A stretch of 64,000 bases of DNA from Solibacillus merdavium. GTDB taxonomy: Bacteria > Bacillota > Bacilli > Bacillales_A > Planococcaceae. Each line of letters starts with the position of its first letter. Position 1 is the stretch's first letter. The translations under genes were made by a program, and so were the position numbers. The notes beneath the pieces are model-generated. The model was not told the DNA's origin. It did not search any database and saw nothing but the letters and a program-made list of their open reading frames with translations. This document shows, in pieces, positions 2,581 to 50,765 of this stretch. Where the stretch lies: assembly GCF_014836935.1 (NCBI RefSeq), contig NZ_JACSPW010000013.1, forward strand, positions 1-64,000, given 5' to 3'.

Positions 2581-3855
2581 TTATGAATGAGCAGCTGCTC
2601 CCTGTTTCCCTTTGTGTTTGCTTTGTTCCTCTTCTTTTACACGCTGTTTTTTCAATTTGTTTAAATCAGAACGTAATAGTAAAGAAATACCTAATGAAAT
2701 AGCGATTAAGAAGCTGAATAGATAGAATACTGGAATATAACTGTTTGTCGCTTCGTGAATTGTTGATACGATAATCGGACCAAAAATACCACCAAGTGAC
2801 CATGTAGTTAATAAATAGCCATGAATAACCCCAAGTTGCTTCGTGCCGAATAAATCACTTGCGAATGCCGGTAAGTTCGAGAAACCACCGCCATAACAAC
2901 TAACTACTAAGAATATGAATACCTGCAATAGAATAGCGTTTGTCGTAAACGGTAATGTAATAAAAGCAATTAACTGAATCGTGAAGAAAATAACAAACAC
3001 ATTGGAGCGTCCGATATAATCTGACCCAGCTGCCCAAAGTAAGCGACCACCACCATTAAATAGTCCCATCAAACCAACCATAGTTGCAGCAGCAGCTACT
3101 GACAGCCCAGCAATTTCCTGTGCCATTGGAGAAGCTACTGAAATCATCATTAAACCAGAAGTTACGTTAATTAAGTGCATAGACCAAAGCATCCAGAATT
3201 GCTTTGTACGAACTGCTTCACGAGCAGACATTTGTGCGATTTCTTGTGATTTTGCTTTTCCTGTAGCAACCATGTCTTCTACTTCACCTGGTTTAGGTGG
3301 AGCAATATAAAGTGCCCCTGCAATCATTAATAGAAAATAACTTATCCCTAAAATATAATACGTATTTGAAATCCCTACAGCCTGCATTAAGTTTGCAGCG
3401 ACTGGCGCGGTGATTAATGCACCAGATCCAAATCCTAATACAGCCATCCCTGTCGCTAAACCACGACGATTAGGGAACCATTTAACAAGCGTTGATACCG
3501 GAGCAATATAACCAATCCCCATCCCGAGACCGCTTAGTAACCCGTATGTTAGCCAATATAAAACAACTGAATCCATAGCAATCGCAATACCTGCGCCACC
3601 TTGTCCTAAACCGAATAGTACCGCCGCAACCATCGCTGCTTTTCTCGGTCCTAACTTTTCTACTGTGCTACCAAATAATGCTGCAGCAAAACCAGCTAGT
3701 CCCATCATAATTGTAAAAGCAATAGTGATTTGTGATGCATCCCAACCGAGTTCTGTTGCGATTGGATTTTTATACACACTATATGCATACGCACCACCGA
3801 TTGAAAGGTGGATAGCAATGGCAGATGCTGCAATTAACCAACGATTTTTTTTCAT
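2581..3855 (-). CDS. OFA-family MFS permease (oxalate/formate antiporter-like)
   Basis: A 424-residue, 12-TM major facilitator of the OFA family. Markers are the opening RWLIAASAIAIHLSIGGAYAYSVYKNP, a GLGMGIGYIAPVSTLVKWFP segment characteristic of oxalate:formate antiporter relatives, and a C-terminal half with GYLLTTWSLGGIFGP. The start is an ATG behind GAGGGGGAAATTAT. The C-terminus is a basic cytoplasmic tail. Members exchange small carboxylates, but many Bacillus members have no known substrate, so the specificity stays open. The gene is monocistronic: promoter-like sequence upstream and a strong terminator directly behind. Confidence 0.85.
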   Translation of the reverse strand: MKKNRWLIAASAIAIHLSIGGAYAYSVYKNPIATELGWDASQITIAFTIMMGLAGFAAALFGSTVEKLGPRKAAMVAAVLFGLGQGGAGIAIAMDSVVLYWLTYGLLSGLGMGIGYIAPVSTLVKWFPNRRGLATGMAVLGFGSGALITAPVAANLMQAVGISNTYYILGISYFLLMIAGALYIAPPKPGEVEDMVATGKAKSQEIAQMSAREAVRTKQFWMLWSMHLINVTSGLMMISVASPMAQEIAGLSVAAAATMVGLMGLFNGGGRLLWAAGSDYIGRSNVFVIFFTIQLIAFITLPFTTNAILLQVFIFLVVSCYGGGFSNLPAFASDLFGTKQLGVIHGYLLTTWSLGGIFGPIIVSTIHEATNSYIPVFYLFSFLIAISLGISLLLRSDLNKLKKQRVKEEEQSKHKGKQGAAAHS

Positions 3856-26544: not shown

Positions 26545-26797
26545 GAAAAAAGCACCTCAACCAATTTGGTTAAGATGCTGTATAAACCTTGATATGACGC
26601 TACTTATGTAAGCAGCCACATTGCCGTAGTTATTATAGAAAGTTTTAAACCACCACTCCTCAAAGTGGGTGTTCGCAAATGCTATCCTGTCTATCCTGAA
26701 GTCAAAAGAGTCCAGGCACGCCATTCCAACATCGATGTAAAACTCCCTGTATAAGTATAAAGGTTAAAACTTAATATTCGTACGTACAACGTAGCCT
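26545..26797 (-). ncRNA. Structured non-coding RNA, candidate 6S RNA
   Basis: On the minus strand a strong promoter (TTGCAC 26833-26828, 17-bp spacer, TATTAT 26810-26805) is followed by about 250 nt with no ORF and a good terminator (AGCATCTTAACC pairing with TTGAGGTGCT, then six T). The 5' end GCTAC...TGTA pairs with TACA...GTAGC near 26599-26612, closing a roughly 197-nt core. Inside are a CCACT/AGTGG hairpin and a CCTGGA/TTCAGG hairpin. Length, closing stem and largely unpaired middle fit 6S RNA (SsrS), but I could not align it to a reference. Confidence 0.55.
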
Positions 26798-26804
26798 TAT
26801 TCAT

Positions 26805-37583: not shown

Positions 37584-38291
37584 TTATTTTATCGGGCAGA
37601 ATCCGCAAGCGATTAGCCCCGGAATGTCTTTCGAGAAGCAACAGCTTTTCCTAACTGGCTGATTAATTAGTGCAGAAGGACTTTTCCCGCCTGTGTAATT
37701 TAAAAACAGGGATTTATCCGAGAAATAGCGCCAAACCTCTTTACCTTCAAGCAATTCTAAGTCCTCAAAGGCACGGTCGGCAAGTGCCGGATTCTCGAGT
37801 AATGTATGATAGTGCCATAGCATATACCCGAAGATGTTCTCCCATAAAATAAGTGGGGAAATCGACGTCGTTTTACGTAATTGACCAATAATAACAGATG
37901 TTTTATATAAAATATCCGTCATCACACGCTCGCGCTCATCATCTTCCACATAGCGAAAATCATTCGGGTTGATATACATACCGAGTGTATGTATCCCATA
38001 TTCCTGAACAATGGCGAATCTTAAATTTTCTGGCTTGCCATCCCAGATTTCATCATAAGTTGTCAGCATATAAAACTGCATTGCCACAAACATGCCATAG
38101 CGACGACCAAAGTGAGAAATGGCCGCAGTTTCTGTTGCAGCATTCGTTATCCCCATCATTAAATTACGAAAGTCCGTTAAATAAAAGTCTTTATGAAGAT
38201 TGGCCAATGTAAATAATGGACGGTCTGGTTCTTCCGTAAAAATACTGTAAGAATTTAATTGACGAACTTGATCGTATGAAAGTGCAGGCAT
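37584..38291 (-). CDS. FhuF-like iron-sulfur protein
   Basis: 235 residues ending in a C-C-x10-C-x2-C cluster (residues CCFSKDIPGLIACGFC), the unusual 2Fe-2S motif of FhuF-type ferric-siderophore reductases. The body is helical and resembles the IucA/IucC-FhuF fold. It should act in the cytosol, releasing iron from ferric complexes. The start ATG 38291 follows AAAGGTGA; the GTG three codons earlier overlaps that site. No siderophore transport genes are adjacent and no Fur box lies directly upstream, although one occurs 570 bp away. Confidence 0.75.
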   Translation of the reverse strand: MPALSYDQVRQLNSYSIFTEEPDRPLFTLANLHKDFYLTDFRNLMMGITNAATETAAISHFGRRYGMFVAMQFYMLTTYDEIWDGKPENLRFAIVQEYGIHTLGMYINPNDFRYVEDDERERVMTDILYKTSVIIGQLRKTTSISPLILWENIFGYMLWHYHTLLENPALADRAFEDLELLEGKEVWRYFSDKSLFLNYTGGKSPSALINQPVRKSCCFSKDIPGLIACGFCPIK

Positions 38292-38399
38292 TTCAATCAC
38301 CTTTTCTTAAAAATTGTTTACCTTTACTATAACATTTCTCTTCACAAACGAGTGGAAAAACGCTACGATAAACTAAACATATAAGAAAGGTTGGTTTTT

Positions 38400-38828
38400 A
38401 TGGCAAAACCTATTTCTATTCCTAGACCGTTAGTTCGAGTGAATCAGTGGACTATTTTTCTCTCCGTCATATTAACGTGGGTGACGGGACAATATTGGCT
38501 TTTGGCAATTCCTTTAGTAGCAAATTTGCTTGGGATCTTTACGGGATTTAACCCGATTATGCGATTGGCCAAATTATTTTTAACGAAAGATGTGAAATCT
38601 TATATCCCGGAAGATGTTGCTCAGCAAAAGTTTAACTCAACGATTGCAAGCATTTGTTTGGCAGGCGGATTATTAGGATTTGTCTTTCAAATGCCGGTCG
38701 TCGCTTATAGCTTTACAATTATGGTCGCGCTCGCATCATTTATTGCGATTTTAGGATTTTGTATAGGTTGCTTTATTCATTTTCAATGGAAACAGTTCCA
38801 ATACCGTCGTTCTATTAGAAATACTTAA
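38400..38828 (+). CDS. DUF4395 membrane protein
   Basis: 142 residues with four hydrophobic segments in two pairs. It opens with PISIPRPLVRVNQWTIF and has a GFNPIMRLAK loop and GFCIGCFIHF near the end, all typical of DUF4395. The C-x-x-C in the last segment could be redox-active; DUF4395 proteins are often found near thioredoxin-like genes, but none is next to it here. Function unknown. Confidence 0.8.
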   Translation: MAKPISIPRPLVRVNQWTIFLSVILTWVTGQYWLLAIPLVANLLGIFTGFNPIMRLAKLFLTKDVKSYIPEDVAQQKFNSTIASICLAGGLLGFVFQMPVVAYSFTIMVALASFIAILGFCIGCFIHFQWKQFQYRRSIRNT

Positions 38829-38845: not shown

Positions 38846-38874
38846 TTGACAATGATAGTGATAATCATTATCAT
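38846..38874 (+). promoter_or_regulatory. SigA promoter overlapped by a perfect Fur box
   Basis: TTGACA (38846-38851), 17-bp spacer, TATCAT (38869-38874). TGATAATCATTATCA at 38859-38873 matches the Bacillus 7-1-7 Fur consensus (TGATAATNATTATCA) at every position, and hexamers extend on both sides (GATAGT, ATTATA). Fur with iron would block RNA polymerase here. Confidence 0.85.
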
Positions 38875-38880
38875 TATAAA

Positions 38881-39105
38881 TGTAGCAAGAGCTTATTTGT
38901 AATACAGTACAAGTAAGTCTGAGCTAACCGCTTTCTCCAGGAGCTAGTTAGCTCAGAAAATATTATTCTAAACCCCCTCATTTAGAATGTAAGTTTGACT
39001 GTGTGTCAGACTCTGAGTTTTTCACCCTTTGTTTTTTCATCTAGTTTACTTCCTTTTTGGAAGACCCGTTACCCGTATCAGCAAATTGATACGGGTATTT
39101 TTATT
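38881..39105 (+). ncRNA. Candidate Fur-regulated structured small RNA
   Basis: No start codon with a usable reading frame occurs between the Fur-box promoter and the terminator at 39072-39105. The predicted RNA folds into four consecutive hairpins: H1 38892-38917 (10 bp), H2 38918-38957 (11 bp, TCTGAGCTAAC with GTTAGCTCAGA), H3 38965-38988 (8 bp, loop CCCCCTCA) and H4 38992-39012 (8 bp) followed by CTGAGTTTTTC. It may end at H4 (about 144 nt) or at the distal terminator (about 225 nt). A C-rich loop under Fur control recalls FsrA of B. subtilis, but sequence homology was not tested. Confidence 0.6.
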
Positions 39106-39106
39106 G
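39068..39106 (+). terminator. Intrinsic terminator between the sRNA and the deacetylase operon
   Basis: ACCCGTATCA pairs with TGATACGGGT, followed by ATTTTTATT. Confidence 0.85.
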
Positions 39107-39127
39107 TAAAAAAAAATAAAAATTTTT

Positions 39128-39153
39128 TGAAACTAATTTTGAATTTCTCCGTC
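39128..39153 (+). promoter_or_regulatory. ECF-sigma promoter of the deacetylase-sigma-anti-sigma operon
   Basis: TGAAAC (39128-39133), 16-bp spacer, CGTC (39150-39153): an exact match to the AAC-N16-CGTC pattern of the Bacillus SigW/X/M/V group. It strongly suggests that the operon is transcribed by the sigma factor it encodes. Confidence 0.75.
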
Positions 39154-39191
39154 TGTACGTTGCTTTAAAAGAAAAGCTAACGGAGGAAATT

Positions 39192-40466
39192 ATGAAAAAG
39201 GTTATTACTGTAGGGGTATTTGCTGCTTGTGTATTATTGATAGCAATTCAATATAAAAGTTTTGGTCAAAATATCGAACGGGCTGTCGCCAATGAAAACG
39301 ATGTTGTTCAAGTGGATAATGAATTACAAATTGAACAAGCGACACATCTGTTTGAAAAAGTGCTTCTTATAGAAGAAGCACAGCCAATTTATATGAAAGG
39401 GAAGGCGCTTGTTGAAATTGGAACTGTGCAGCCAGGTGCATCTTTTGCCATTGCAGGGGAAGATGAGCTTTTTTATGAATTGCGGTTCGGTAAAATAACG
39501 GCATTTATAAAAAAGGGAAGTGCAACCGTTGAAAAACGGGAAATTCAAGCATTAGTCAATAAAGAGGTGACAGGTTCAGTCAAGGCAGATGAAAGAGTGG
39601 CTGTCTATGAAGAAACAAGCTTTGATAGCGCGGTTATGCTCCAGCTTGCACAAGGGTTCCGCTTTCCGATAGTGGGAGAAATAGGGGATTGGTTTATTCT
39701 AAAAATTGGCGAGCGTGCGGGTTATATACATAGTCAATCAGTTGAAATAGATGAAGGTATTCCGGTTTTAGTGTATCATCATATTTTACCGCAAGATGAG
39801 ATGGTGACAGAGGTGAGTACTGTTTCGGTTGAATCATTTGAGCAGCAAATGGTCTTTTTGGCCGAAGAGAATTTTGAAACGATTACAACAGCACAGCTTT
39901 ATGATTATTTGGAAGGTCGCCAGATTCTATCGACCAATTCGGTACTTATTACTTTTGATGATGGCTTATTATCGACGAAGGAATATGCCTACCCGATTTT
40001 AAAGAAACATGGGTTTACAGCGGTACAGCATATTATCTCTTCTCGAACGAATCGTTTTGAAGGCGAGCAGGTTTTTAATAGTGAAGGACCGCTTCAGTTT
40101 TTTACGGAATATGAGATGGAACAATTAGCAGATGTGTTTTATTATGAAGCACATACAGAAGATTTGCATCGCCTCAATAGTGAAACAGGGCTTGGTGTAG
40201 CACTTGAACTGTCGGCTTCTGAAATTGCAGACGACTTAAAACGAAATGTTGCGACGCTTAAAAATGCGACATCGTTAGCGTATCCGTTCGGTCATTATAA
40301 TGAAGAGATGGTTAAAGCGATGAAGGAAGTCGGGCTATTGATCGGCTTTACGACAAATGAAGGCTATGCAAATATTGAGCAATCAAATTATGAAGTAAAT
40401 CGTTTTGGGGTAACAGAAAAGAAAACATATGAACAGTTCACTTCTTATGTAAAGGGGGTGTTCTGA
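39192..40466 (+). CDS. Membrane-anchored polysaccharide deacetylase
   Basis: 424 residues: an N-terminal membrane segment (about 4-24), a bacterial SH3-like region (about 55-185) and a NodB-type deacetylase domain (about 190-424). NodB motifs are LITFDDG (motif 1, two Asp), YEAHTEDLHRL (motif 2, metal His-x4-His) and SLAYPFGHYNE (motif 3). It should remove N-acetyl groups from peptidoglycan or another wall glycan outside the cell, which typically gives lysozyme resistance. CGGAGG lies before the ATG. First gene of an ECF-controlled operon. Confidence 0.85.
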   Translation: MKKVITVGVFAACVLLIAIQYKSFGQNIERAVANENDVVQVDNELQIEQATHLFEKVLLIEEAQPIYMKGKALVEIGTVQPGASFAIAGEDELFYELRFGKITAFIKKGSATVEKREIQALVNKEVTGSVKADERVAVYEETSFDSAVMLQLAQGFRFPIVGEIGDWFILKIGERAGYIHSQSVEIDEGIPVLVYHHILPQDEMVTEVSTVSVESFEQQMVFLAEENFETITTAQLYDYLEGRQILSTNSVLITFDDGLLSTKEYAYPILKKHGFTAVQHIISSRTNRFEGEQVFNSEGPLQFFTEYEMEQLADVFYYEAHTEDLHRLNSETGLGVALELSASEIADDLKRNVATLKNATSLAYPFGHYNEEMVKAMKEVGLLIGFTTNEGYANIEQSNYEVNRFGVTEKKTYEQFTSYVKGVF

Positions 40467-50593: not shown

Positions 50594-50765
50594 CTCTTAT
50601 CAAGAGCGGCGGAGGGAATAGGCCCTGAGATGCCCGGCAACCAGTGAGTGATCAACTGACTAAGGTGCTACATCCTACAAAATGGACAGTCATTTTGAAA
50701 GATAAGAGGAGGCAAACTTGCTCATACGCAAAACCCTCTTCTTAACTGAAGGGGGTTTTTTTCAT
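50594..50765 (+). promoter_or_regulatory. SAM-I (S-box) riboswitch with terminator
   Basis: P1 is CTCTTATC (50594-50601) with GATAAGAG (50701-50708). Between them are the conserved S-box elements AGAGCGGCGGAGGGAA, GGCCCTGAGATGCCCGGCAACC and GGTGCTACATCC. The expression platform is an intrinsic terminator at 50730-50765 (AAAACCCTCTTC with GAAGGGGGTTTTTT); the GAGGAGG after P1 can pair with CCCTCTT as antiterminator. High S-adenosylmethionine should stop transcription before metY. Confidence 0.95.

Follow-up and report, generated by a model that had tools for sequence, protein, structure and literature searches.

We describe here an RNA of ~220 nt in Solibacillus merdavium which, with a probability of about 0.83, is a Fur-repressed, trans-acting, iron-sparing antisense sRNA whose loop would pair with the Shine-Dalgarno sites of iron-enzyme mRNAs. 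The RNA lies in a window of 64,000 nucleotides, which is the whole stretch of DNA analysed, and its sequence has the features expected of a non-coding unit, namely a promoter overlapped by a Fur box and an intrinsic terminator (Table 1). The best reading of the locus is a previously undescribed sRNA that would resemble FsrA or IsrR in its mode of action, and an antisense, iron-sparing role is its best-supported mechanism. The first-pass annotation of the window had proposed a Fur-controlled sRNA with a C-rich loop, and this reading passed tests of conservation, covariation, Fur-box presence and target complementarity, as laid out below.

The promoter is of the SigA type, with TTGACA and TATCAT separated by 17 nt, as claimed at first pass, and matches 11 of 12 consensus positions. 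Overlapping it is the perfect 15-mer TGATAATCATTATCA, a 7-1-7 Fur box at 38859-38873, which had also been described correctly. The two overlapping 19-mer Fur sites found here (four matches when both strands are counted) are the sole ones in the 64 kb at up to three mismatches; 0.07 matches are expected in a shuffled sequence of this length, and none of 100 shuffles reached four.

The 221-nt transcript has a predicted folding energy of -70.8 kcal/mol (z = -7.3), and none of 200 shuffled sequences was as stable. Its predicted fold contains the four hairpins of the first-pass annotation, including the C-rich loop CCCCCUCA of hairpin 3, which is predicted to be unpaired with a probability of ~1.0; a terminator-like site follows. 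In most of the predicted folds the loop closed by the apical stem of hairpin 2 is CUCC; in the S. merdavium sequence it is CUCCA. The conserved core of the sRNA spans 38890-38991, and its pyrimidine elements, in an RNA whose promoter also has the Fur array, comprise two near-invariant loops and a third, CACCC-containing stretch conserved at the level of the genus.

Table 1. Features of the sRNA locus and its neighbours in the window
Feature	Position	Strand	Basis and remarks
-35 hexamer TTGACA	38846..38851	+	Promoter scan; TTGACA in 17/17 loci aligned (including L014)
-10 hexamer TATCAT	38869..38874	+	17-nt spacer from -35
Fur-box array	38854..38878	+	Two overlapping 19-mers around the perfect 7-1-7 TGATAATCATTATCA
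sRNA transcript, ~220 nt (221 nt folded)	38881..39105	+	Predicted; 5' end from promoter spacing, 3' end from terminator
Hairpin 1	38891..38918	+	Predicted fold and alignment of 41 sequences
Hairpin 2, CUCC(A) loop at 38935-38939	38919..38956	+	Predicted folds and covariation
Hairpin 3, C-rich seed loop CCCCCUCA at 38973-38980	38964..38989	+	Fold and covariation
Hairpin 4, weaker stem, mainly within Solibacillus	38992..39012	+	Predicted fold, 16-locus alignment
Third pyrimidine stretch UUUUUCACCCUUU	39018..39030	+	Kept in 14/16 Solibacillus loci (L015 and L016 differ)
Intrinsic terminator, 12-bp stem and T run	39070..39105	+	Terminator-like site 39070-39097 in sequence scan
FhuF-like siderophore-iron reductase gene, divergent neighbour	37584..38300	-	TIGR03951 profile match
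DUF4395 membrane protein gene, directly upstream	38400..38828	+	Homologue at 38/83 loci

Homologues of the sRNA were detected by BLAST in all 15 genomes of the same genus (E <= 2.3e-17) and in one further genus, g15. A covariance model built from 17 sequences (R1) matched 76 of 261 family genomes (E <= 0.1), and a second model of three hairpins, built from 41 sequences (R2), matched 89 of the 261 (E <= 0.05) in 13 of 19 genera, although such genome comparisons overstate independence because the genomes are related. Eleven of these 13 genera had contributed sequences to R2 while g5 and g12 had contributed none; the genera g2, g3, g4, g8, g9 and g13 gave no R2 match. An order-wide search with R2 comprised the same 261 genomes and added nothing, and among 299 genomes drawn from the class there were seven matches, all of them in the Planococcaceae. 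A pattern consisting of the loops only (CTTTTCTCCA and CCCCCTC, 24-54 bases apart) was found in 97 of the 261 genomes, with a single match in total for the reversed control; it misses S. merdavium itself as well as G005, the nearest genome, and G003, where the T or C run differs, and one of its matches, in G280, looks like chance. A degenerate form of the pattern returned 66 named loci. Half of these were confirmed by R2, and all 33 come from Lysinibacillus, Solibacillus, Metasolibacillus, Metalysinibacillus or Bacillus ndiopicus; the other 33 belong to other taxa and look like chance. The record of Solibacillus faecavium A46 scored 75.9 bits with R2. Some genomes carry more than one match to R2: seven g14 (Lysinibacillus) genomes have two and one has three, while each of the three g16 genomes has a pair close together.

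A covariance alignment against Planococcaceae genomes, proposed at first pass as a check, revealed structural covariation. The alignment (A3) includes 41 of 55 matches, leaving out near-duplicates, L086, L087 and the cut second copy in L079, and covariation was counted on this MAFFT alignment with L017 supplying the structure. Changes on both sides are seen in 143 cells, compared with a mean of 68.8 in shuffled alignments (none of 500 reaching 143) and 52-69 for slid structures, and 79.4% of cells are paired, compared with 38.8-50.8% for slid structures, a control in which a structure taken from a single member leans towards itself. Two of the five measures are weak, namely the number of pairs changed on both sides (22 of 36; shuffled 18.4, reached by 13 of 500) and the number of further pair types (66; shuffled 61.5, reached by 65 of 500). 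In the helix of hairpin 1, all 10 pairs have changes on both sides among the 41 sequences. The three hairpins thus covary while their CUCC (hairpin 2) and C5-6UCA (hairpin 3) loops stay nearly constant: TTTCTCCA of hairpin 2 is invariant in 41/41 aligned sequences, and hairpin 3 keeps its C run and UC nearly unchanged across all 41, while the stems vary.

The Fur box is conserved together with the RNA. The 83 loci scanned correspond to 81 distinct rows, or 80 after setting aside L062, which lies inside a coding region. A box matching at least 17 of 19 positions (best of two consensus strings) is present in 75 of these 80 members, each of the 75 with a TTGA[CT] element just upstream of it, and none of 3000 background windows contained a box of at least 16/19. 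Thirteen weak R2 matches that were fetched afterwards all have a box of 16-18/19, located 21-35 bases before the match. The five remaining members score 12-14/19. Four of them are copies from the g16 pairs (L075, L077, L079), whose weakened boxes could set different iron thresholds. The fifth is the third copy in G106 (Lysinibacillus; L073, ~1501-1612), which lacks a recognisable Fur box; its hairpin 1 is altered, but both seed loops are kept.

The protein encoded divergently at 37584-38300 matches the TIGR03951 profile with E = 1.1e-12 and 48.4 bits, below the cut-off of 63.85, and Pfam FhuF with E = 0.066 only. It ends in a CC-x10-C-x2-C pattern, which we take to be the FhuF cluster motif, and may possibly represent a distinct subfamily of siderophore-iron reductases. 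A homologue is found at 68 of the 83 loci, 13 of which are only ~700 bases long, and the gene is divergent and upstream of the sRNA in 65 of the 65 loci where both were placed; in three the sRNA was not placed automatically. The cysteine pattern occurs at 57 of the 83 loci in some open frame, a count in which the frame is not tied to the FhuF-like homologue. We take the sRNA locus to be orthologous across genera. Elsewhere in the window, Rfam models identify a SAM riboswitch (RF00162) at 50594-50708 (+) with 83 bits and a 6S RNA (RF00013) at 26609-26800 (-) with 69.6 bits.

No Rfam model in the release used recognised the sRNA at threshold, either here or in the loci of nine relatives. The gene belongs to a kind already known elsewhere, but the family it forms goes unrecognised at threshold by that release in all sequences examined. 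Membership in FsrA was rejected: the FsrA model (RF02273) did not reach its gathering threshold in any of 37 family genomes, S. merdavium among them, while the control B. subtilis and the relative G049 were detected in the same search (run with stricter filters), and R2 in turn scored the FsrA locus at no more than 8.5 bits (E = 0.82). The two RNAs are alike in promoter layout and, by prediction, in the way they would pair. The FsrA-bearing relative G049 has a TTGACA and Fur-box promoter of the same layout, and FsrA, according to PMC8216469, acts through C-rich stretches on its targets (gltD, gltAB, sdhC, citB, qcrB, leuABCD, lutABC and resABC), of which gltAB, sdhC, citB and qcrB make up the overlap with the candidate targets here. 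They differ in that the sRNA described here is ~220 nt long with three conserved hairpins, whereas the FsrA model has 83 positions, and the FsrA locus of G049 (3 kb) shares none of the three neighbour genes. The likeness to IsrR of Staphylococcus is by description only: as portrayed in PMC9410917, IsrR has Fur boxes, several hairpins, three C-rich regions lying in loops, and iron-sulphur enzyme targets including gltB2, and is conserved among staphylococci, the range reported there, without being orthologous to FsrA or RyhB. The best-scoring of the weak Rfam matches was to the rli22/LhrC clan of Listeria, with weak similarity around UAAAC-CCCU; at 25 bits, compared with a gathering score of 80, membership in this clan was rejected as well, and the LhrC abstract attributes induction to LisRK, not Fur. 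None of the full-text literature matches listed, in a search whose scope lay outside bioRxiv and most subscription papers, concerned an sRNA under Fur control in the Planococcaceae, Solibacillus and Lysinibacillus included.

Complementarity between the C-rich loop and ribosome-binding sites, a further check proposed at first pass, was found for gltB, qcrA, sdhC and acnA. The S. merdavium genome contains 39 GAGGGGG-N4..12-ATG sites, compared with 18 in the reversed control. Twenty-eight of the 39 precede an ORF of at least 40 codons, and among the 20 of these ORFs that were scanned for families, the only recognised iron enzymes are gltB (a 501-aa fragment that matches the large subunit of glutamate synthase with 497 bits, where the cut-off for the whole protein is 1047) and a Rieske protein, named qcrA here, whose best matches of ~60 bits are below cut-offs. 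The sequence AATGAGGGGG before gltB is identical in 14/14 Solibacillus genomes with a gltB match; two of the 16 have no match at threshold. Pairing of the gltB leader with the CCCCCUCA loop gives the best duplex, of 11 bp and -19.9 kcal/mol, stronger than those of all 53 window start sites and of 1000/1000 shuffled loops. For qcrA (-16.7 kcal/mol), sdhC (-14.1) and acnA (-12.3, a modest value), respectively, 1, 3 and 6 of the 53 window sites give a stronger duplex, a comparison that rests on ranks and on a background that is rough because the sites were called by a simple script; among 1000 shuffled loops, 6, 32 and 23 do as well or better. The best loop match among the 53 window sites belongs to an L-lactate MFS transporter gene at 2581-3855 (-), with a GAGGGGG ribosome-binding site and a duplex of -18.2 kcal/mol. 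We regard this transporter as a candidate target because FsrA, according to PMC8216469, controls lutABC.

We compared family genomes with and without the sRNA for a run of five or more G before the start codon. The run precedes acnA in 24 of 26 sRNA-positive genomes when read by eye (22 of 26 automatically; the leaders of G005 and G033 read AGGGGG) versus 2 of 11 sRNA-negative ones, and gltB in 17 of 21 versus 0 of 3, a count that leaves out G018, G025, the outgroups and G027, in which the start was not placed. For sdhC the numbers are 26/26 versus 6/10, leaving out G025, and the run is also present in 8 of 12 genomes examined outside the family. For qcrA they are 25/25 versus 5/5, not counting G016, G017, G018, G023, G027 and G035, six members of the family that have a qcrA match but no sRNA match. 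Therefore, in these related genomes, the sites of acnA and, on few negatives, of gltB track the sRNA, those of sdhC do so partly and those of qcrA do not. Since G-runs before qcrA and sdhC also occur where the sRNA was not found, these two sites need not have evolved for it. For both sRNA-negative genomes with a run before acnA, G025 and G031, the sRNA is found in other species of the genus concerned. GGAGG precedes acnA in G027 and in the sRNA-positive G019 (g5) and G026 (g12), the one genome examined in each of these genera, and the sRNA-positive genomes without the run before gltB are G019, G020, G024 and G026.

The rival that deserves most weight, though we consider it unlikely, is that the RNA is a Fur-controlled sRNA whose main partners are something other than iron enzymes: mRNAs for lactate transport, the envelope or uptake, or a sequestered protein. 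It would account for the L-lactate transporter having the second-best duplex of the 57 start sites, for the G-rich sites that also precede larA, metA, phoU and dnaB, and for the sequence of hairpin 1, which within Solibacillus is almost invariant, more than pairing requires. Against it, the gltB duplex is the best of all and the four iron-enzyme sites rank 1, 3, 6 and 10 among the 57, bearing in mind that these four were chosen, two because they fit GAGGGGG and two because they are targets of the type known for FsrA. Much less probable is a Fur-controlled 5' leader or attenuator of the polysaccharide deacetylase gene that begins at 39192 on the same strand, with ~90 bases between terminator and start codon. 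The terminator stands between the two, and a deacetylase homologue occurs at only 7 of 83 loci, whereas the RNA, together with a promoter of its own, persists across 13 genera.

The first-pass annotation had also suggested two mutually exclusive folds, in which CTCAGA pairs with TCTGAG either at 38918 or at 39012, as the S. merdavium sequence indeed allows. We rejected such a conformational switch on energy and conservation and give it very little credence: the pairing at 39012 is 5.6 kcal/mol worse with a pairing probability of 0, the exact second TCTGAG is present in only 2 of 16 aligned loci (CTGAG is kept in four more), and the covariation in hairpin 2 is that of a simple stem. Least probable of all is an unrecognised small protein gene. 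A 57-aa frame with a TTG start does overlap 38995-39168, but no ORF of at least 18 codons with a ribosome-binding motif was found in the 31 homologous loci scanned, in keeping with the earlier claim that no usable ORF follows the promoter; the sole frame met twice is an 18-codon GTG frame in L076 and L081, from one genus. Variation in the core, moreover, takes the form of single-base indels and of compensated changes in the stems, and a coding gene was rejected.

Based on our findings, we favour the iron-sparing antisense sRNA and propose that it acts as follows. When iron is plentiful, Fur would bind and repress the promoter; upon iron starvation Fur would leave it, and the sRNA would be transcribed and accumulate. 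Its stems would then expose two single-stranded pyrimidine seeds, CUCC and CCCCCUCA, and probably CACCC as a third. In the cell, the CCCCCUCA loop is predicted to pair with G-rich Shine-Dalgarno sites, above all that of gltB (glutamate synthase), with qcrA (Rieske protein), sdhC and acnA (aconitase) as likely further partners. Such pairing would block ribosome entry and repress translation, and iron would be spared.

To our knowledge, post-transcriptional iron sparing in Bacilli outside Bacillus and Staphylococcus is largely open. Our results make it fairly probable that the Planococcaceae have an iron-sparing sRNA of their own, not recognisably related to FsrA and located beside a siderophore-iron reductase gene, and that there has been independent convergence within the Bacilli on the same enzymes by way of loops complementary to Shine-Dalgarno sites, with IsrR compared by description only; the acnA and gltB sites are mostly G-rich in genomes with the sRNA and mostly GGAGG-like in those without a detected copy (with few negatives for gltB). 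A family-wide RNA that combines a Fur box with covarying stems and with seed loops that hardly change provides Lysinibacillus and Solibacillus with an iron-sparing regulator that can be tested at once. It also allows a comparative study of the possible joint evolution of an sRNA seed and ribosome-binding sites.
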